Assembly (NCBI GenBank): GCA_022560615.1
Contig: JADFSR010000001.1
Span: forward strand, 310,001-374,000
Reading direction: 5' to 3'
Source: Gemmatimonadota bacterium
GTDB lineage: Bacteria; Gemmatimonadota; Gemmatimonadetes; Longimicrobiales; Gaopeijiaceae
DNA length: 64,000 nucleotides
In this document: positions 54,172 to 64,000 of the stretch, piece after piece
Layout: every line of letters starts with the position of its first letter
How positions within the stretch are numbered: the stretch's first letter is position 1
Notes under the pieces: generated by a model
What the model was told of the DNA's origin: nothing
What the model saw: only the letters and a program-made list of their open reading frames with translations
Database searches by the model: none
Position numbers and translations under genes: made by a program

Positions 54172-54765
54172 TCAACCGGGCTCGGCAGCGACGGAGGTCC
54201 GACGCGGGTGGGACTTTGAGAGGATGCTCCAGACCACCGGCCCAATGTCGTGCGCCGTCTCCCAGAGCTCCGCGTGTCTGCGGCCCGCGACCCGTGCGGC
54301 TTCGGCGAAATGGAGGGAGGAGAGCGCCGGACCGCGATGCGGGTACGGGCGCTCGAACCAGTGGAATCCCGTGAGCACCGCGGACGGTCCGGCCGCGTTG
54401 GAGAAGACCGTGAAGTCGGGCGACCAGCCCGCCAGTGGCGCCGCGCGCACCTCCAGCCGGCCGGACTCGAGCATGCGCTGAAGAAACGCGAGCCGGGGCG
54501 CGCGCGCCGGGTCGTTGGTGAGGCCGCGGGCTTCGGCGGTGAGCTGGATCGCGTTCATTTCGGCGACGAGCACGCGGAACCGCTCGACGCCTTCCAACTC
54601 TGATTCCGTGAGGTCCATGGTGCTGAGGCGGACGCGGGTGACCGCGGTTGCGATGCCGGTCGATTGGCTTGCCAGCGCTCCGAAGGCGTCCCGGAAATCC
54701 GGCCGTGTACGTTCGTCTAACAGCGCAGCCGGCTGGGGCGTGATACCGAGCAGAGGTGAAGCCAT
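54172..54765 (-). CDS. Hypothetical cytoplasmic protein
   Basis: A 197-residue reading frame without signal peptide or membrane segment. Helical start (TIAT-like Ala-rich DAFGALASQSTGIATAVTRV) and an aromatic, His-rich second half (LTGFHWFERPYPHRGPALSS and HFAEAARVAGRRHAELWETA). No family is recognised. It is 34 bases downstream of tdk on the same strand. Confidence 0.55.
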   Translation of the reverse strand: MASPLLGITPQPAALLDERTRPDFRDAFGALASQSTGIATAVTRVRLSTMDLTESELEGVERFRVLVAEMNAIQLTAEARGLTNDPARAPRLAFLQRMLESGRLEVRAAPLAGWSPDFTVFSNAAGPSAVLTGFHWFERPYPHRGPALSSLHFAEAARVAGRRHAELWETAHDIGPVVWSILSKSHPRRTSVAAEPG

Positions 54766-54799
54766 GAACCGTCCTGGTCGAGAAGGTACGACCGGACGA

Positions 54800-55462
54800 T
54801 CACCCGGAGATCGGGGCGCCGGGATGGGGACTTGGGACGGGAGTCCCTACGCCGCCCATCTCCAGCTCAGTTTGATGCCGCGTCCGCAGCGGCACGTCGT
54901 GGCACTTCCGGCATCGGGCCTCGTAGCTCTCGGAGCCACCCACATGGATCGTCGGCCCTTCGGCGGGCGCGGGCTCACCATCGATGAGGCGTTGGTTCCG
55001 AGTCGCCAAGTCACCGCACACGACGCAGATCGCGTGCAGCTTGTCGATCCGCTCGGCGATCGCCAGTAGCCGCGGGATCGGGCCGAAGGGCTCGCCGCGA
55101 AAGTCCATGTCCGTGCCCGCCACGATGACACGAACACCTCGATCGGCGATATCGTTGACCACGCCCACGATGCCGTCGTCGAGAAACTGGGCCTCGTCGA
55201 TCGCGACGACCTCGACGTCGTCTCGAACCTTCTCGGCGATCTGGACCGAAGAGGTCACTGGGTGCGCATCCAGCTCGGAGCCGTCGTGAGAGGTGATCCG
55301 GAACACACCCCCGTAGCGGTCGTCCAGGTGGGACTTGAAGAGCTGGACCTGCCGCTTCGCGATCAGGGCCCGGCGCACACGTCTGAGCAGCTCTTCGGAC
55401 TTCCCGCTGAACATCACGCCTGAGACGACTTCGACCCAACCATCCTGTGCGCCGTGGTGCAC
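54800..55462 (-). CDS. tdk: Thymidine kinase (type II)
   Basis: A 220-residue thymidine kinase (EC 2.7.1.21). It begins with the P-loop [12 protein letters not shown], then Walker B-like [13 protein letters not shown], and the lasso loop [17 protein letters not shown]. The zinc-binding cysteines appear as CVVCGD and CRKCHD. The start is GTG 55462; the stop codon of a 42-codon frame lies six bases upstream, so coupling is possible. The tail [14 protein letters not shown] is disordered. Confidence 0.93.
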
Positions 55463-55468
55463 GGCGCG

Positions 55469-55597
55469 CTAATTGCCGACGAGGATGACGATCGCGACGA
55501 TGCTGGCCACCGCGACTCCGATGCCGGCCGAGGTGTACAGGTCGAGAGACAGCGCCCCGAGCGCGCGGGGTAACAGGGGAAGGCGGGGACGTTTCAT
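55469..55597 (-). CDS. Putative small membrane protein (42 residues)
   Basis: ATG 55597 to TAG 55469 encodes a basic start (MKRPRLPLLPRALG) and one hydrophobic helix (SAGIGVAVASIVAIVILVG). It is too short for family assignment and has no good ribosome binding site. Its position six bases before tdk and its one-segment design make it a plausible small membrane protein. Confidence 0.4.
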   Translation of the reverse strand: MKRPRLPLLPRALGALSLDLYTSAGIGVAVASIVAIVILVGN

Positions 55598-55736
55598 GGA
55601 TCGATGCGCACCGTGGCAGGGTGAATCGATATGGCTAGTTTAGTCGGACGCCTTCCGGGTTGTCTACCCGCCGGATGCTGGGCGGCCCCTCCGACCTCAA
55701 AGCAGAATCACACTCCGCTCCCAAGAAGGTCCAGGT

Positions 55737-57347
55737 ATGAAGATCCGCCTCCATCGCCACGGCAGCGTCGCGCTCATGGCCGGCGCGCTGCTCGGGGTGT
55801 CGGGTGCCTCGGGCCAAGACACCGCCGCGCCGTCGCTCGTCGTCATGATCGTCGTTGATCAGCTCCGTGGGGATATGATCGGTCACTACGAGGAGGCGTT
55901 CTCGGGCGGCTTTCGGAGGTTTCTCGACGAGGGATACAGCTTCACCAACGCATCGCATGCGCATGCGCGCACGCATACAGCGCCGGGACACGCGACGCTC
56001 TCGACGGGAGTCTTTCCTTCACGCTCGGGCATCGTCGCGAACGACTGGTTCCTGCGGGCCGGCGAGAGCTGGCAGAGTGTCTACGCCGTCGAGGATCTCG
56101 ACAGCCCGATCCTCGGATTCGAGAGCGAGGAAGCACTCCCCGGTCGCTCGCCGAAAAACCTGCTGCGCACCGGTTTGGCTGATTGGGTGCGCGCTGCGGA
56201 CGGCGATGCCCGGACGATGTCGATCTCGTCGAAAGACCGCGCCGCGATTCCGCTGGCTGGCAAGACCGACTCGAACGTGTACTGGCTCCTGCCCCGGTTG
56301 GCCCGCTTCATTACGTCGACGCACTACGCCAACCGCTACCCCCGTTGGTTGACCCGCTTCAACGAACGGGTCATGCCCAGGATCGTGGGCGACCTCGTGT
56401 GGGAGAACGGAGTACCGGAGCGGTTCCGGTCCCTGGCTCGCTCCGACAGCGCGTCCTACGAGGGGGCGAACGCGGGCCGAGGAGGCTCGACGTTCCCGCA
56501 CCGGAGCTCGGACGAGGCCGTGACGACGGGCCTCCAGGCGCACAACCAGTGGGCCGTCAGGCACGCCCCAGCCGACGCTGCGGTGATCGCGCTGGCGGAG
56601 GCCGCGATCGAGGAGTTCGATCTCGGGCAGCGTGATCAGGTCGACTACCTCGCGATCTCCCTTTCGGCGACGGACTACGTCGGCCATGACCACGGGCCGT
56701 TCAGCCAGGAGCAACTCGTGAACCTCGTGCACGTGGACCGTATCCTCGGGGAATTCCTCGAATACCTGGACGAGGAGGTAGGCGACGGGGAGTGGGTCGT
56801 GGGCCTTTCGTCCGATCACGGCGTCGTGACCATGCCCGAGTATGAGCGGGAGAGCGGCGATAGGAGGGTAGTACGGATCCGGAGGCAGGATGAGACGCAG
56901 AGGCTCTCAGCGTCGCTCAGGACCGCGTCCGGCAGGGGGGGCCTGCCCGAGGAGATCGCTGAGCGACTGGCCAGAAGCCTCGAGGCCGAGGGGACTGTTG
57001 AAAAGGCGTACACGCACTTCGAGCTGACGCGGGGCGAGCCCGCCGACTCGTTCGCCGTGCTCTTCCGGAACTCGCACTACCCGGGTCGTGCGCACAATAC
57101 GCTCTCGCCGTACGGCGTAGAGATCCGTTACCGGGAGGGCGATCTAGTGCACTTCCGGACGGGCACCACACACGGAACGCCGTATTGGTACGACCGGCAC
57201 GTGCCGTTCATCCTGCTCGGCGCGGGCGTCGAAGCAGGATCATCGGATGCGCCCGCCTACACCGTCGACATGGCCCCAACGCTCGCTGCGTTGGCAGGCA
57301 TCGACGCTCCGTACGACCTGGACGGACGCGCGATCTACAGAAGATAA
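55737..57347 (+). CDS. Secreted alkaline phosphatase family protein (PafA-like)
   Basis: A 536-residue exported phosphatase. AGGTCCAGGT lies just before the ATG and a signal peptide (VALMAGALLGVSGASG) begins the chain. PafA-type motifs: VVMIVVDQLRGDMI, the nucleophile Thr in ARTHTAPGHATLSTG (about residue 79), YLAISLSATDYVGHDHGP, SSDHGVVTMPEY and GTTHGTPYWYDRHVPFILLG. It releases phosphate from organic esters outside the cell. It is monocistronic; a 14-bp stem hairpin follows. Confidence 0.9.
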   Translation: MKIRLHRHGSVALMAGALLGVSGASGQDTAAPSLVVMIVVDQLRGDMIGHYEEAFSGGFRRFLDEGYSFTNASHAHARTHTAPGHATLSTGVFPSRSGIVANDWFLRAGESWQSVYAVEDLDSPILGFESEEALPGRSPKNLLRTGLADWVRAADGDARTMSISSKDRAAIPLAGKTDSNVYWLLPRLARFITSTHYANRYPRWLTRFNERVMPRIVGDLVWENGVPERFRSLARSDSASYEGANAGRGGSTFPHRSSDEAVTTGLQAHNQWAVRHAPADAAVIALAEAAIEEFDLGQRDQVDYLAISLSATDYVGHDHGPFSQEQLVNLVHVDRILGEFLEYLDEEVGDGEWVVGLSSDHGVVTMPEYERESGDRRVVRIRRQDETQRLSASLRTASGRGGLPEEIAERLARSLEAEGTVEKAYTHFELTRGEPADSFAVLFRNSHYPGRAHNTLSPYGVEIRYREGDLVHFRTGTTHGTPYWYDRHVPFILLGAGVEAGSSDAPAYTVDMAPTLAALAGIDAPYDLDGRAIYRR

Positions 57348-57383: not shown

Positions 57384-57419
57384 GGTACGCTCTCCCGTCA
57401 TATGGCGGGAGGGCGTACC
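57384..57419. repeat. 14-bp stem inverted repeat
   Basis: GGTACGCTCTCCCG (57384-57397) and CGGGAGGGCGTACC (57406-57419) pair with one G-T mismatch over an eight-base loop. No T run follows, so it could be a factor-dependent terminator of the phosphatase gene or an operator; it lies 20 bases upstream of a strong -35 box. Confidence 0.6.
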
Positions 57420-57438
57420 TGTTGCTGTCACTTGAATC

Positions 57439-57467
57439 TTGACAGATTCAGACGCGACCCGTATACG
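57439..57467 (+). promoter_or_regulatory. Strong candidate sigma70 promoter
   Basis: TTGACA (57439-57444), an exact -35 consensus, is followed after exactly 17 bases by TATACG (57462-57467). Transcription from near 57474 would give a leader of about 240 bases before the next start codon (57715). The leader includes a run of nine Cs (57655-57663). The rest of the 57348-57714 gap contains only the 57384 dyad. Confidence 0.65.
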
Positions 57468-57714
57468 TATGTGTCACGCTGTAAACATATGAACCTGTGC
57501 GTTCCGGGAGTGGACCCCGGAGTCCGGAGCCTTGATGGCGCCGGTCTCCAGGTTCTTCGACGGGAACGACGACGCGCCGCCTCCCGCGCGTCCGCAGTTA
57601 ACAAGCGGATGGTGGGAAGGTCGACCGGCGACGAGACAGGTCTCCGCAGGCTCTCCCCCCCCCACGACAGAGGAAGCTGGACTTGTAGTCAGGCGTCGAA
57701 CCGAGGGAGACACG

Positions 57715-58434
57715 ATGGACGCGCGGGAAGAAGGACGGGTTGGCTGGACGATAGAGGAGGCCGAGGGGTTGCTCTTGTCGCTCAAGAGCATCGTGTCGGC
57801 TCGAGTCGTTGCGCGTCCGGGTGGCGAGGTGGAGGAGATCCACGTCCTGACCACTGACGAGCTGAAGCCAAAACAGACCGTGCGCAACGTGGAGTCCGCC
57901 CTACTCGCCCACCTGGATATCGAGGTCGATCACCGGAAGATCTCGGTCGCGCAGACGAAGGGGCGGCCACCCGAGCGCGCGGAGCCTGAACCCACGGTCA
58001 TGCTCCTTCCCGATCCGTCCGTTCGTGAGGGGCGCCTGCTCTTTTTCAGCCATCACATGGAGACGGAGCGCTCACACCGAGTGCGGCATCGGGTGGAGAT
58101 CGAATGGCAGGGTGATCGCTACGCCGGTGAAGCCACTGCCGCCGATCTACCCCGCGCGAGACTCGAGGCTATAGCGGCAGCGACGCTCGCAGCGGTGTCT
58201 GCCGCCCACGAGAAAGGGATGGGGGAGGACAGACAGGCCGTCGCCCTCGCGGTGGACGGAGTGACGGTGGTCAACGCTTTCGACCAAAAGTTCGTACTGG
58301 TCGCCGTACACGCGATCTCGGGACGCGACGTGGCGTCGCTCGCGGGCGCAACCGTCGTGAGCGAAACCACGGACCGCGCAACAATCCTGTCAGCGCTGCA
58401 AGCCACGGACCGTTGGGTCCGAGGAAAACTCTAG
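57715..58434 (+). CDS. Protein of unknown function
   Basis: A 239-residue cytoplasmic protein. The ATG at 57715 is preceded by GAGGGAGA; an earlier in-frame start adds an unconvincing 61 residues. The N-terminal 75 residues have the character of a small alpha/beta domain (LLLSLKSIVSARVVARPGGE, HVLTTDELKPKQTVRNVESA, LLAHLDIEVDHRKISVAQ). After a Pro-rich linker comes a second domain, with VEIEWQGDRYAGEATAADLP and VTVVNAFDQKFVLVAVHAIS, compatible with an ACT-like or swapped fold. I recognise no named family and no catalytic motif. The next gene encodes a tiny peptide and then an HD-GYP phosphodiesterase. Confidence 0.7.
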   Translation: MDAREEGRVGWTIEEAEGLLLSLKSIVSARVVARPGGEVEEIHVLTTDELKPKQTVRNVESALLAHLDIEVDHRKISVAQTKGRPPERAEPEPTVMLLPDPSVREGRLLFFSHHMETERSHRVRHRVEIEWQGDRYAGEATAADLPRARLEAIAAATLAAVSAAHEKGMGEDRQAVALAVDGVTVVNAFDQKFVLVAVHAISGRDVASLAGATVVSETTDRATILSALQATDRWVRGKL

Positions 58435-58592
58435 AAGCGAGGCCCGCGGGCCCTGTAAATAACCCCCCAGGACAAGGAGAAGGAGAGCCCCCTCGAGTGT
58501 GCCCCTGAGCGAAGAAGAGCGGTGAGCGAAGCGCATGCGGCTCCCACAGCGGAATTCGGGATGCCGACACCGATTCATAAGGAGGTTGCGCT

Positions 58593-58664
58593 ATGTTTAG
58601 CTCTCTGTTCGACTTTTTCGGAAGTGTGCTGTCCCTACTCGGGAACGGCGTTGTAAGCTGGTAA
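58593..58664 (+). CDS. 23-residue hydrophobic peptide with a perfect Shine-Dalgarno sequence
   Basis: ATG 58593 to TAA 58664 encodes MFSSLFDFFGSVLSLLGNGV followed by VSW. The site AAGGAGG lies seven bases before the ATG, the best ribosome binding sequence in this part of the window. The peptide has one acidic residue, a run of hydrophobic residues that could form an amphipathic helix, two glycines and a C-terminal Trp. It is too short for homology. It may be a signal peptide, a membrane-active peptide or a small regulator of the next gene, whose start is 38 bases after its stop. Confidence 0.55.
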   Translation: MFSSLFDFFGSVLSLLGNGVVSW

Positions 58665-58702
58665 CAGGGACGGGGTAGATTTGAGGGGGCCATCCCCCCT
58701 TT

Positions 58703-60127
58703 ATGAAGGACCGAGGAATCCGCATCTATGTGGGGATGATGTGCGCGGCCGCGGTCGGAAGCCTCGTGCTGACCCGCTGGTCCTCGCTAGGCACGCTTCC
58801 CGCATCGAGTCAGGCCGCGCTCGCCGGTCTGATGTTGATCGCCCTCCTGTCTGAGTCGGTGGCGATTCGCCTGAGTGTCGGCGCTAAGGCTGGCGGTGCC
58901 TCGTCCATCATGTTTATCCCACTCCTGGCAAGTGTTCAGCTGTTCGGTCCCGCCGCGGGGGTCCTGCTCGCACCGACCACGATGCTCTTCGGCGAGTTCG
59001 TCGTACGACGGAAGGGCCTGCAACGCGGCGCGTTCAACGTGGCCCAGACCGTTTTTGCGGCGACGTTGGCCGGGTGGGCGTTCACGTTGCTCGATGGGGT
59101 CCCGCTCGAGGGCCAGCCGAGCGCCTCAGTAACCATCACCAGCCAACTCTGGCCTTTTATCACCTTTGGCCTGGTCTTTCTTGCCCTCAACCACGCGGCC
59201 GTCTCTCTCGCAATCACGCTCAGCCAGGGGCTCCCGTTCAGGAAGGTCTGGGCGAAGATGCTGAGTCACTCTGGCGGGAGCCTGAACGACCTGCTGATCA
59301 GCCCGATAGCCCTCGCGGTGGCGTTCCTGTACGTGCAGTTCGGGATAGCCGGCATCCTCGTCCTGCTGCTCCCGATGCTGTTCATTCGTTATTCGTACCT
59401 CGCTACGTTTAGGCTCAGGGAGGCGAACGCGGACCTGCTGAAGGCGCTAGTAAAGGCGATCGAGACCCGGGATCCGTACACCTCGGGCCACTCACTGCGC
59501 GTCTCGCATCTGGCGCGCCGCGTCGCCGAAGAACTCGGGTTGCAAGCACACGTGGTGGAGCAGATAGAAAACGCGGGCCTGCTTCACGACATCGGCAAGA
59601 TCGAGGCGGTTTTCACGGACATTCTGAGGAAGCCGGGTTCGCTGTCCGATGAAGAACGGGCGATCATCGAGTCGCACGTCACGAAGGGCGTGAGCCTGCT
59701 TCGGGATCTGTCATCTGTCCCCGAATCGGTAATCAAGACGGTCCGTCACCATCACGAGCGCGAAGATGGCAACGGATACCCCGATCGTCTAATGGGTGAT
59801 GAAATCCCTATCGGCGCCAAGATCATCGCAGCGTGTGATGCTGTCGATGCGATGCTCTCTGACCGCCCGTACCGGAAGGCCCTGGCTGTCTCCGCCGTTC
59901 GCGAAGAGCTACATGAGCATGCCGGCAAGCAGTTCGATCACCGCGTTGTGAGGGCCATGATGACCGCGAATGTCTTGAGCGACTACGCGGATATCATGCG
60001 GCGCGGTCGCGAAGCCACTGAGGTCGTCGAGCAGCACGGTCTTCTCGCCACAATGCCGCTGCGTCCGGCGGCTCGGAAGCCCAAACCCGGACGTTGGACT
60101 CGATCCGCACGGCTGCCGGTGCGATAG
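58703..60127 (+). CDS. Membrane HD-GYP domain cyclic di-GMP phosphodiesterase
   Basis: A 474-residue protein. The first about 230 residues hold some eight membrane segments (SQAALAGLMLIALLSESVAI, AGVLLAPTTMLFGEFVV, FITFGLVFLALNHAAVSLAI and others), a sensor-like membrane region. The C-terminal HD-GYP domain starts VKAIETRDPYTSGHSLRVS and has the HD motif LLHDIGKIEA, VRHHHEREDGNGYPDRL (with GYP) and IIAACDAVDAML. All metal-binding residues of active HD-GYP enzymes are present, so it should hydrolyse c-di-GMP to GMP. A short GGGGG/CCCCC hairpin (58684-58699) lies directly before the ATG and could mask it. Confidence 0.9.
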   Translation: MKDRGIRIYVGMMCAAAVGSLVLTRWSSLGTLPASSQAALAGLMLIALLSESVAIRLSVGAKAGGASSIMFIPLLASVQLFGPAAGVLLAPTTMLFGEFVVRRKGLQRGAFNVAQTVFAATLAGWAFTLLDGVPLEGQPSASVTITSQLWPFITFGLVFLALNHAAVSLAITLSQGLPFRKVWAKMLSHSGGSLNDLLISPIALAVAFLYVQFGIAGILVLLLPMLFIRYSYLATFRLREANADLLKALVKAIETRDPYTSGHSLRVSHLARRVAEELGLQAHVVEQIENAGLLHDIGKIEAVFTDILRKPGSLSDEERAIIESHVTKGVSLLRDLSSVPESVIKTVRHHHEREDGNGYPDRLMGDEIPIGAKIIAACDAVDAMLSDRPYRKALAVSAVREELHEHAGKQFDHRVVRAMMTANVLSDYADIMRRGREATEVVEQHGLLATMPLRPAARKPKPGRWTRSARLPVR

Positions 60128-60156
60128 TAGTTCCGGAGCCAACGGCGACTCGGTCT

Positions 60157-63100
60157 CTAGCTGGTCCGCTCGCGCAGCCGGTCGAGCCAGGTCGCCCTCG
60201 TGTGGAGTCGGAGGTCGTGGGCGACTTCACGGGCCTCCTCGATCCTCTCCAACTGAATGCTTTCCCCAATTCGGGCGGCGAGCTCCAGTTCGATCACTCT
60301 GACCTTCAACCACGCGTTGAGCATCCTTGGGAATAGTTGCGGTTGGTCCTCCCGCAGGATCTCGAGCGCCGCCTGATGCCTGCCCCTTCTGGTTAGCAGG
60401 GCCGCCTGGAATCTTAGGATCAGGCTGGGCTGGAAGTACCAGTACGGTGGTATCACCAATAACTCCTCGAATCGTCGCGCCTCCGACAGACGCCCCTGCT
60501 CCAATGCGCAAATGCCGAGGCCGGCGTACACCATACTGGCGTAGTGGGGGGCGGGGTCCGAAGAGAAAGCATCACGAAGGTCGCGATACTGTGACTCCGC
60601 GTCGGTGAAGTCGCGTCTTAGCAACGCCAGTTCTGCGAGATTGAGATGATGGTTCGTCGATGGGCGCTGAAGGTCGGCGCCGGAGAGAAGGGGGCCTGCG
60701 CGCGCCAGGGACTCTCCTGCTTCATCGAGGTCTCCGACGTCCAGTTGAAATGCTGCCACGTTTCCTTCAATCGCGAACCGCCGGAATCGATCTCCGCTTC
60801 TCTCGGCGAGCGTACGTGCCTCAGCGATGAGCCTCCGGGAGGCCGGAAGGTAGAGTCGAGCCGAGTAGTGGAGAATCGCAATTAATCGGCACTGTACCGA
60901 CAGTAGATGGTTCTCGAGTCCGTGCTTCCGAGCGATCTCCACCGCCTTCTCTCCCCGGGCTACGCCGTCGTCCGAGTCCCGGAACAGGATGCTCATGCCG
61001 AGACTCGCGTTGATGAGGCAAGCGGCTTCGTGAGACCCGACGCCATCTACCGTAGCCATTTCATCGAGAAGGGATCTCACCTTCGGCACGTCCCCCTGTG
61101 CGTGCCGCAGGTGCAGCTCCACGTCCAGTGCCAGGGCCAGAGCCTCCCAATCCTCGCCCACCCTAGCCTCGTCCTTCACGTGAGTCAGGCGATCGATAAG
61201 ATCCAAGACAGGCGTCGCGCCGTTCTCGGCCAGCCCTTCAACGCGTAAGATCTCCATGCGGCGCGCGGTTGGGCTGTCCCCTACCTGTCGGAGACGCGTT
61301 GCCGCGAGCTCGAGCATTGGATTCGCGCGAGCCATCTGGCGATCCATGTGCAGTGCCTTGGCCAAGTCGGCGGTAGCGGATGCGCGACGGACAGGGTCGG
61401 TCTCGTTCTGAACGACGATCTCGAAAAAGTGGGCCGCCGAGACAACCGCCCCACTCGCGAGAGCTTCCGTGGCGGCAATCCCAGCATAGTGGATCGCTCG
61501 CTCCGGCTCCCCCGCTTCGGCGAAGTGGATCGCGAGCTCGCCGGGGAGTTCCGAGGCGTCGAGGGCCTCCATGTGCGTGCCGACCCTGCCGTGCAGCAAG
61601 GGCCGACGGACATCACCGATGTGTTTGTAGAGGGCACTCCTGAACAGCTCGTGCGAGATGCTGATTCGGTCGCGATCGACTACCACGAAGTGCGATCTCT
61701 GCAACTCCTCAACCCGATCGACACATTCATCGAGCCCGAGCTCGGTGAGTTCCCCGAGGTCGGTGAGCCTCATGGGGCGCGCCCGTACCGCGAGCACCTC
61801 CGCCACCCGGGTAGCCCCCTCTGAGAGATTCCCAATCCGTGTGTCGAAGATCTGGCGCAACGAGATGGGAATGGGGATGGTCTCGAGGGTCCGCTCCGGC
61901 AGGGAAAGTCGTCCGGCGACGAAGTCCTTGGTCACCTCAGTCAAGTAGAACGGATGGTTCGCTGCCAGGTCGCACAGATGTTCTCTGGTGACCTTGTCCA
62001 GCGGACGATCCGCGATGTGGTCGACGAGTCGGCGGGCGTCTGAGTCGTCCAGTTCGGAGAGGTGGACGGTGCGCACGCTGATCCCGTCCGACTCCTGGAT
62101 GAGTACGGATAGAGGATCGCCCTTCCGAACCAGCTCGGGACGGATCGCCGCGACGACTCCCAACGGCCCCGACTCCCAGCGTCTCTGCATGAACTGTAGA
62201 AGCGCGATGGTTGTAGGGTCGGCCCAATGGATGTCGTCCAGGAAGAGCAGAGTGGGGCTCTCCTGAGCGAGCCGATCGAACAGCATCCAAAACGCATCGA
62301 GTAGGCGACGGGAGAGGCTACTGTCTTGCACGTACGGGATCTCCCCCGGCGGACCGTCGATCCAGCTAGCTGGGAGGAAGGAGCTGATCACCGCGCTCCA
62401 GGGATCGCCAAGGGCTCGGAGATGTGGCCGCAGGTCGACACTCGAGAGCGCATCGATGATCGGATTGAGAGCGATCTTGCGTTCCAACTCGACAGGCCGG
62501 GCGTGAAGACACCTGAACCCTTCTAGGATCGCCTTCGTCCGAAGCTCCTCCATGAGGCGTGTCTTGCCGATGCCTGCCTCCCCGCTCATTAGGAGAAGAT
62601 CGAGGTTACCGCTCCTCACCCTTTGGAACACCCTGCACGCCTCCGCCAACTGTGTGCTCCTGCCGATGAGCGGCACGATCGGTGCGGTGGGTCCGACCGA
62701 GAAGCGGGCACCAGTAAGTGTGCGAACGCGAACCATGAGTCTGCTGAGTCGATCGGACCCTGTTGTGTTCGGGGCTAGCGACTCCACGTGACTCGCGTAC
62801 GCGGCCTCAGCGGACGCTGTCCTTCCGATGCGCGCCCGTGCCTCGATCACCTTCTCCAGGGCGGGCACGTCGTTTGGCGCAAGCAGATAGAGCGCCTCAG
62901 CGGCATCGTGCGCCGACTCCCAGTCGTCGATCTTCACTCCCTCATCCCACGCGCTGGCGGCCGCTCGGCGAAGCCTGTTCGCGAGTGACAAGCGACGCGC
63001 CTCGAGCCAGTCGGCGAGGGGCGCGCTCGTGGGTGAGAGCCTTGCCGCGAAGCCCAGTTGTAACGTCTCGGCGGCATCGAGAAGTCGGCCGTCGGAAAGT

Positions 63101-63432
63101 GACTGAAGGAAGTCAGGCAGGTCGCTGCTCGTAACCGATGCGTCGGGTTGCAGTGGGTCCGCGTTGTTCTCGACTACGCGCGTCCGCATTCGGTGGTGCA
63201 CATCGCTGAGTAGCTGTCGGAGCTTTTGCCGCGGAACTGGCCCGTCGTCCACGGCCCAGATCAGCCAAATGACTTCAGCGCGGCTGATCCGGCCGTCACG
63301 ATGCCCGAAGAGAAGCGCCACCAGAGCCATCTGGTGCGGCGAGAACGTGATCTCCTCGTCCCGGATGCGTGCAACGGGTCCGCCGAAGAGCTCGACCCTC
63401 GTGAGCACCTTGTCAGATCGCGCTCGGCTCAT
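60157..63432 (-). CDS. Large SARP/AAA-type transcriptional regulator
   Basis: A 1091-residue regulator. The N-terminal part (about 1-250) looks like a SARP-style winged helix (VELFGGPVARIRDEEITFS, ALLFGHRDGRISRAEVIWLI) followed by a bacterial transcriptional activation domain of helical repeats. The NTPase has Walker A GEAGIGKTR and Walker B LLFLDDIHWADPTT. The C-terminal half is helical TPR-like. Unlike the 40813 regulator it has no C-terminal LuxR HTH, so DNA binding should be N-terminal. The start is ATG 63432; upstream in-frame codons are low-complexity. It converges on the HD-GYP gene, 29 bases apart. Confidence 0.8.
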   Translation of the reverse strand: MSRARSDKVLTRVELFGGPVARIRDEEITFSPHQMALVALLFGHRDGRISRAEVIWLIWAVDDGPVPRQKLRQLLSDVHHRMRTRVVENNADPLQPDASVTSSDLPDFLQSLSDGRLLDAAETLQLGFAARLSPTSAPLADWLEARRLSLANRLRRAAASAWDEGVKIDDWESAHDAAEALYLLAPNDVPALEKVIEARARIGRTASAEAAYASHVESLAPNTTGSDRLSRLMVRVRTLTGARFSVGPTAPIVPLIGRSTQLAEACRVFQRVRSGNLDLLLMSGEAGIGKTRLMEELRTKAILEGFRCLHARPVELERKIALNPIIDALSSVDLRPHLRALGDPWSAVISSFLPASWIDGPPGEIPYVQDSSLSRRLLDAFWMLFDRLAQESPTLLFLDDIHWADPTTIALLQFMQRRWESGPLGVVAAIRPELVRKGDPLSVLIQESDGISVRTVHLSELDDSDARRLVDHIADRPLDKVTREHLCDLAANHPFYLTEVTKDFVAGRLSLPERTLETIPIPISLRQIFDTRIGNLSEGATRVAEVLAVRARPMRLTDLGELTELGLDECVDRVEELQRSHFVVVDRDRISISHELFRSALYKHIGDVRRPLLHGRVGTHMEALDASELPGELAIHFAEAGEPERAIHYAGIAATEALASGAVVSAAHFFEIVVQNETDPVRRASATADLAKALHMDRQMARANPMLELAATRLRQVGDSPTARRMEILRVEGLAENGATPVLDLIDRLTHVKDEARVGEDWEALALALDVELHLRHAQGDVPKVRSLLDEMATVDGVGSHEAACLINASLGMSILFRDSDDGVARGEKAVEIARKHGLENHLLSVQCRLIAILHYSARLYLPASRRLIAEARTLAERSGDRFRRFAIEGNVAAFQLDVGDLDEAGESLARAGPLLSGADLQRPSTNHHLNLAELALLRRDFTDAESQYRDLRDAFSSDPAPHYASMVYAGLGICALEQGRLSEARRFEELLVIPPYWYFQPSLILRFQAALLTRRGRHQAALEILREDQPQLFPRMLNAWLKVRVIELELAARIGESIQLERIEEAREVAHDLRLHTRATWLDRLRERTS

Positions 63433-63517: not shown

Positions 63518-64000
63518 CTACTTGGCGGCGGTGCGTCTGCCTCTGGCGCCGCCAGCCCGCCTGGCCCTCCGCTCCGGCCTCCCTGCATCAGCGGGCGGGC
63601 TCTCGATGCCCGAAACGCGTGAGTGATCGGGCGCTAGGCCGCCCGATTCGGCCTCGCGCCTCAACCAGCACTCCATGAGCCACTCCCACCCGAGCTGCTT
63701 GCGCGCCTCGTGAGGGCGAACACCCATGATCCGTTCCATTTGATTGCTCACGGAGAAACCGTCTGGATAGCCGAACTCGTACGCCACCGAGAAGATGCTG
63801 TCCCTGCTATTCTGAAGTTTGATCGCCACACGCAAGAGCCGACCAAGGTGCAACCAGTGCGAGGGCACAGGGAGCCCCCTACTCAAGAACCGGCGTCCGA
63901 GGGCGCGACGGGACAGGTACATGCTTCTGGCGAGAGCAGTGATCGAGCGAAGATCCGCGGACTTGTCGATCGTCCGCCGAATGAGGTGCACCGTGTCTCG
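63518..64000 (-). CDS. AraC-family HTH regulator, cut by the window edge
   Basis: The frame runs off the right end of the window, so the N-terminal part is unseen. About 100 visible residues form an AraC HTH: ITALARSMYLSRRALGRRFL (first helix-turn-helix) and VAYEFGYPDGFSVSNQMERI, MGVRPHEARK (second one). The tail from about 63680 to the stop is Arg/Ala/Gly-rich and probably disordered. It sits 85 bases upstream of the SARP-type regulator on the same strand and may be its partner. Confidence 0.75.
   Translation of the reverse strand, partial: RDTVHLIRRTIDKSADLRSITALARSMYLSRRALGRRFLSRGLPVPSHWLHLGRLLRVAIKLQNSRDSIFSVAYEFGYPDGFSVSNQMERIMGVRPHEARKQLGWEWLMECWLRREAESGGLAPDHSRVSGIESPPADAGRPERRARRAGGARGRRTAAK

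Follow-up and report, generated by a model that had tools for sequence, protein, structure and literature searches.

What is the role of a 23-codon frame for a hydrophobic peptide placed directly in front of a gene for a membrane HD-GYP protein, and by what means are the two genes connected? The arrangement is found in a Gemmatimonadota bacterium of the family Gaopeijiaceae, in a stretch of 64,000 nucleotides (hereafter, the window) that spans positions 310,001 to 374,000 of contig JADFSR010000001.1 and is part of a 4.5-Mb assembly (GenBank GCA_022560615.1). An initial annotation, made from the letters alone, had read the region as a possible peptide-linked locus for signalling by cyclic di-GMP (c-di-GMP). 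The peptide gene that it singled out is selected and tied to the HD-GYP gene, but the cis-acting RNA around that gene, and the translational control that the RNA would exert, had been missed. The elements concerned, given as positions in the window, are listed below.

58488..58505 (+): 5' arm of the long-range helix P1, CCCCCTCGAGTGTGCCCC, covarying
58507..58534 (+): three AGCGRA-type repeats, GAGCGAAG, GAGCGG and GAGCGAAGCGC, near-invariant throughout the phylum
58538..58571 (+): hairpin P3 (loop AGCGGA), showing covariation, then GACACC at the position of the anti-Shine-Dalgarno element (P4)
58579..58585 (+): Shine-Dalgarno sequence of the peptide gene, AAGGAGG
58593..58664 (+): 23-codon peptide gene, MFSSLFDFFGSVLSLLGNGVVSW, lying within the RNA
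58672..58690 (+): 3' arm of P1, beginning 8 nucleotides past the peptide stop codon, with the HD-GYP Shine-Dalgarno sequence inside it
58683-58689 (+): Shine-Dalgarno sequence of the HD-GYP gene, GAGGGGG, inside the 3' arm of P1
58703..60127 (+): gene for a predicted MASE9-HD-GYP membrane phosphodiesterase, with intact catalytic motifs

A long-range helix encloses the peptide gene

In the alignment of the loci, the sequence CCCCCTCGGTCTGCC, located about 90 nucleotides 5' of the peptide, was complementary to the spacer 3' of the peptide stop codon. The resulting helix, P1, has about 17 base pairs and encloses the whole peptide frame; it was recovered by RNAalifold unaided. Changes on both sides were counted in 10 of 14 aligned pairs of P1. 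Double-change cells, counted over P1 plus the five pairs of hairpin P3, amounted to 53; shuffled alignments gave 17.5 +/- 3.5 (0/500) and slid controls gave 6-16. Pairing fell from 89% to 36-54% when the partner was slid by 1-3 columns. Over 38 loci, the cognate arms of P1 paired at -33.8 kcal/mol, and arms combined across loci at -26.7 (0/20000 permutations). The helix recurs in distant lineages, where the permutation test also gave 0/20000, with longer and less specific arms. At loci L146, L148, L172 and L176 its polarity is inverted, with the G-rich strand 5' and the C-rich strand 3'; as such inversions are found in several lineages, it is the helix itself that is kept.

For the window segment, the folding energy lies 3.8 standard deviations under that of shuffled sequences. 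Across the loci, the 3' arm of P1 begins a median of 2 nucleotides past the peptide stop codon, and the HD-GYP start lies a median of 28 nucleotides past it. The leader was folded for 36 loci with a simple model, in which the row for the window scored an inner G-run and not the Shine-Dalgarno sequence; on average, the HD-GYP Shine-Dalgarno sequence was unpaired at 3% in the free leader, a value that rose to 35% when the 5' arm of P1 was masked and to 30% when a ribosome was placed at the peptide stop codon. P1 is predicted by this folding to mask the ribosome-binding site of the HD-GYP gene, and part of the arrangement would therefore be translational control.

Between P1 and the peptide start, hairpin P3 shows covariation and carries in its loop the same AGCGRA-type motif as the repeats. 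In the distant group of loci, the element CACTTCCC/CACTCC pairs with the Shine-Dalgarno sequence of the peptide to form P4. Pairing in that group reaches 94% for P3 and 84% for P4, accompanied by some compensatory changes, and both P4 partners have changed together in L174/L178; good support for P4 is confined to this group.

The enclosed frame encodes a conserved peptide

Orthologs of the HD-GYP protein were collected from relatives, mostly at 36-54% identity. Nearly all those encoded on a long-enough contig are preceded by a frame of 19-25 codons with a Shine-Dalgarno sequence, most of these frames being clearly similar to the window peptide, and identifiable relatives of the 23-codon frame stay in register. 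The ratio of non-synonymous to synonymous changes (pN/pS) was 0.245 over 96 pairs of alignable peptide versions of the same length, so the codon-substitution analysis proposed in the initial annotation came out in favour of the frame. Its entropy by codon position was 0.76/0.39/1.27. Together, the entropy pattern and pN/pS indicate that the frame is coding and under purifying selection and, since synonymous sites are nearly saturated, the true dN/dS of the peptide is below the measured ratio. Loss of the frame in relatives that keep the flanking genes, the outcome named at the outset as fatal to the idea, did not materialise: the frame is intact in the family orthologs with contigs that reach it and in most of the distant ones. 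Judged by these comparisons, the 23-codon frame is a real gene under strong purifying selection.

Across Gemmatimonadota, 63 distinct peptides were obtained. They have 16-30 residues and a mean hydropathy of ~1.1, are hydrophobic and often amphipathic, and are nearly free of Lys, Arg and Pro. When the family genomes were searched with the peptide as query, no convincing match appeared away from the HD-GYP locus. The peptide family is too short for ordinary annotation to recognise it.

The RNA and the peptide are linked to the HD-GYP gene

The distribution of the RNA was followed with two covariance models: R1, which comprises the region from the repeats to the peptide start without P1 or coding sequence (window match 58507-58595), and R2, which was built from distant lineages. 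Matches to R1 were found in 37 of 121 family genomes, and MASE9-HD-GYP in 36 of 117. In the three discordant genomes (G039, G003 and G138) the locus lies at a contig end; in G011, which R1 missed, the RNA and the peptide start are at a contig end. Every new R1 match with a continuing contig was followed by the peptide and then by the HD-GYP gene, barring L072 (E 6e-4), which was discarded as a chance match. R2 matched in 59 of 395 genomes of the phylum, and 30 of its matches were fetched; those on long-enough contigs show the peptide and then HD-GYP, the peptide start not being located automatically in three. Among the inspectable matches of both models, the RNA occurs about once per genome, at the HD-GYP locus. 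P0002, the first gene of the cassette, is present in 238 of the 395 phylum genomes, and in one lineage an inserted helix-turn-helix (HTH)-receiver gene separates P0002 from the RNA, with the RNA and the peptide remaining beside the HD-GYP gene. The RNA and the peptide are linked exclusively to the MASE9-HD-GYP gene.

As judged by eye, the inserted gene (L140 5880-6460) encodes an HTH and a response-regulator receiver domain; a gap of ~1.0-1.1 kb in L136, L141, L145, L149, L150 and L171 suggests the same insertion. Genome G004 carries two RNA-peptide-HD-GYP cassettes (G004:C52 and G004:C113; L011 and L080). The HD-GYP gene is split over two frames in L026 / L098 (G014), and in L022 (G039) a TAA lies within the HD-GYP matched stretch; each case is a pseudogene or an assembly error. 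In L079 (8807-9583; G149), P0002 is in two pieces, and the RNA, the peptide and the HD-GYP gene are intact. Locus L107, on a contig labelled Bacillota, has the same neighbours and a P0002 67% identical to that of the window, and is probably a mis-binned Gemmatimonadota contig.

The HD-GYP protein is a predicted phosphodiesterase

The membrane HD-GYP protein of the initial annotation was recognised as MASE9 (PF20972, E 1.9e-9, above its cut-off) joined to HD_5 (E 2e-31), and MASE9 was also detected at 4e-7 in a distant ortholog. The HD, HHE..DG.GYP and downstream motifs are invariant across 23 orthologs, and the structure model matches the HD-GYP structures of PA4781 and DvhD. On these motifs, the protein is predicted to be a c-di-GMP phosphodiesterase.

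A model for the control of the locus and its alternatives

We propose, with slightly more confidence than doubt, that a cis-acting translational-control RNA holding the microprotein gene governs HD-GYP, that the translation of both genes is coupled, and that the peptide is also a functional product which most likely works with the MASE9 region. In the resting mRNA, the 5' arm of P1, ahead of the peptide gene, would be paired with the stretch that separates the peptide stop codon from the HD-GYP start codon. The HD-GYP ribosome-binding site would thereby be hidden, and the domain made of the repeats, P3 and the anti-Shine-Dalgarno element would govern access to the peptide's own start. Upon opening of this domain, ribosomes would translate the peptide as far as its stop codon, which adjoins the base of P1, and would then invade the helix, HD-GYP being made in step with the peptide. 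As the residues of the peptide are under selection, the peptide itself, or its nascent chain, would also act. Coupling of HD-GYP to peptide synthesis in vivo, a signal sensed by the RNA and a target for the peptide are what we infer from this; our leading guess for the last is the co-made HD-GYP protein, to whose MASE9 region the peptide would most likely be a small inner-membrane partner. More tentatively, and with doubt slightly prevailing, the RNA may represent a new cis-regulatory class, known so far from a single phylum, that surrounds and evolves together with a new microprotein family serving as membrane regulator of, or signal for, the phosphodiesterase of the same mRNA.

Several observations weigh against this model. 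The pairing of the third repeat with the peptide start region (P2) has weak support in the family (845/20000) and does not reach significance in the distant set, so that a helix over this region is at best suggestive. Where the polarity of P1 is inverted, the Shine-Dalgarno sequence itself does not serve as its 3' arm. A ribosome at the peptide stop codon opens P1 only partly in the folding models and, in the window, neither the outer, GC-rich part of P1 nor, in either state, the HD-GYP Shine-Dalgarno sequence is opened. Finally, the MASE9 part of the structure model (window 58703-59410) most resembles the vitamin-binding energy-coupling factor (ECF) S-components ThiT, RibU and FolT, at E 0.16-1.5 and a template-modelling (TM) score of ~0.6 on the target; this likeness is a weak hint that MASE9 binds a small molecule, and its ligand may thus be such a molecule and not the peptide.

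The main rival to coupled translation with an active peptide is a stalling leader peptide that works as a sensor and is left without a role once synthesised: in response to a metabolite, its nascent chain would stall or slow the ribosome at the stop codon, hold P1 open and turn HD-GYP on, after the manner of the TnaC, SpeFL and Erm leaders. A stop codon abutting P1 and purifying selection on the peptide residues are consistent with such a sensor, as is a length of 16-30 residues, which by general knowledge fits the ribosomal exit tunnel. Trp is found at or beside the C terminus in 55 of the 63 peptides, where it would lie close to the peptidyl-transferase centre; however, it is the last residue (-1) in 40 and the second-last (-2) in 15, and 7 peptides have none among their last five residues, so no residue is kept at a fixed distance from the stop codon. 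Moreover, the N-terminal hydrophobic half of the peptide is as conserved as its C terminus, and the remainder varies in sequence with its hydrophobic pattern kept. The Trp spacing and the N-terminal conservation argue against this sensor, which we regard as rather unlikely.

Less probable still is a secreted signal between cells, in which a leaderless hydrophobic pheromone would be read by MASE9 or by the SARP/AAA/TPR protein encoded downstream, the RNA only tuning the dosage. A short, hydrophobic, often amphipathic peptide almost without positive charge and Pro would suit this role, and a gene for a SARP-type regulator is kept nearby both in the family and at several distant loci. However, the peptide has no signal sequence, no homologous peptide was found elsewhere in the genomes, and no conserved peptide exporter or peptidase was seen among the window genes compared over 18 neighbourhoods, in which the genes are partly annotated.

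A transcription attenuator, in which translation of the peptide would control intrinsic termination at P1 or at a local hairpin, is very improbable: a U-run follows the 3' arm of P1 in 6 of 28 distant loci and a local hairpin GGGGG-CCAT-CCCCC is possible in the window, but no terminator-like site is found there and the U-run is present in 0 of 40 family loci. P1 as a terminator was accordingly rejected for the family, in which a terminator mechanism is unlikely.

Neighbouring genes and flanking elements

The gene order initially described is real: all of its parts were located where they had been placed, and the order is kept across the family. Around the RNA, the peptide gene and the HD-GYP gene, the following features were found.

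57384..57419 (no strand): perfect dyad 3' of a phosphodiesterase/sulfatase-like gene, terminator-like and outside the switch
57439..57467 (+): candidate promoter TTGACA-17-TATACG, ~240 nucleotides before the first gene (P0002)
57715..58434 (+): P0002, 239 amino acids, first gene of the cassette, with an alpha-beta-beta-alpha-beta domain and a LeuA-regulatory-like (beta-beta-beta-alpha)x2 domain
60157..63432 (-): convergent gene for a regulator with SARP-like winged-helix/BTAD, AAA_16 and TPR parts
63518..64000 (-): gene for an AraC-type regulator (HTH_18), 292 amino acids, extending past the end of the window

The dyad had been counted as part of the signalling unit; because close relatives (L102-L105) have a hairpin in the same place, it appears instead to be a hairpin that ends the upstream gene. 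The candidate promoter is likewise present, but its description as near-consensus was generous, as the final T of the -10 hexamer is missing; a stricter site scan rejected this hexamer and returned 0 promoter sites. TTGACA boxes are also found in L110, L119, L129 and L130.

The unknown two-domain protein of the initial annotation is P0002, which had no match in Pfam or NCBIfam, and a sequence search of solved structures gave nothing significant. In its structure model (predicted local distance difference test, pLDDT, of 88), the C terminus resembles the leucine-sensing regulatory domain of LeuA (Foldseek, LeuA/citramalate synthase, E 1e-4 to 3e-3, 12% identity). This is a likeness of fold, with no claim of family membership, and a small-molecule-sensing role is therefore possible. 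A stand-alone protein of 150 amino acids related to this LeuA-regulatory-like domain is encoded in L184 at ~1818-2225 (G000:C43:2317-2724), and other copies of this stand-alone type occur commonly in the genomes of the family.

The two regulators at the far end are present as first described. The BTAD part of the AAA_16/TPR protein is detectable in homologs only. Within the family, the AraC gene and the convergent SARP-like gene are both kept as neighbours, and the SARP-like gene is detected in several distant loci as well. A thymidine-kinase-like gene, the gene at 54172-54765 and the phosphodiesterase/sulfatase-like gene (window 54172-57347) are conserved family neighbours too.

Comparison with known systems

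No relevant Rfam match was found in the window at E up to 5, where hits were at chance level only, nor in 16 relatives or 7 distant loci, and c-di-GMP riboswitches (GEMM-I/II) were discarded as they gave no covariance-model match. In the literature searched, which included few subscription journals, there was nothing on a Gemmatimonadota HD-GYP with a peptide, MASE9 or a matching RNA; as had been supposed initially, no described family joining these parts was found. The locus adds a structured RNA class outside Rfam and a microprotein family, gives the common and poorly understood Gemmatimonadota a specific, testable c-di-GMP control circuit, and allows testing of whether a microprotein gene can be both the switch for, and the partner of, the enzyme encoded by the same mRNA.

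ErmC, TnaC and SpeFL are translational attenuators with leader peptides. Like them, the locus has a short frame with its own Shine-Dalgarno sequence, a downstream ribosome-binding site sequestered in a helix and a short hydrophobic peptide. Unlike them, it has one helix that encloses the whole frame together with a structured domain of ~90 nucleotides, its target is a predicted c-di-GMP phosphodiesterase, it is distributed phylum-wide, and conserved stall residues at a fixed distance from the stop codon are absent. Translational riboswitches such as GEMM-I and GEMM-II share with it a conserved fold with anti-Shine-Dalgarno pairing in front of a signalling gene, but here a selected peptide gene lies inside the RNA, which lacks a relevant Rfam match, is found only at the HD-GYP locus and has no assigned ligand. 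RNAIII, which encodes delta-haemolysin, is a dual-function RNA and is similar in being structured, in its long-range pairing and in encoding a short hydrophobic helical peptide; in contrast, the RNA described here is a cis-acting part of a longer mRNA and not a separate RNA, with no trans targets shown. Other MASE9 HD-GYP phosphodiesterases have the same domain order and catalytic motifs, but this one is linked to its own peptide and leader RNA.

For the peptide itself, the closest parallel is with CydX, a small membrane subunit of a larger enzyme (PMC4325964, PMC6005532). Both are tiny hydrophobic helices beside a likely membrane partner, with a plastic sequence and a conserved pattern (PMC4325964, PMC6005532), and here, as expected of a small membrane subunit, the gene for the hydrophobic helix is inherited together with that of its partner; it differs in lying within a structured RNA, in its C-terminal Trp signature and in a partner that is putative. 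Known counterparts thus exist among leader peptides, translational riboswitches and small membrane subunits, and it is the combination, the RNA class and the peptide family that are new.

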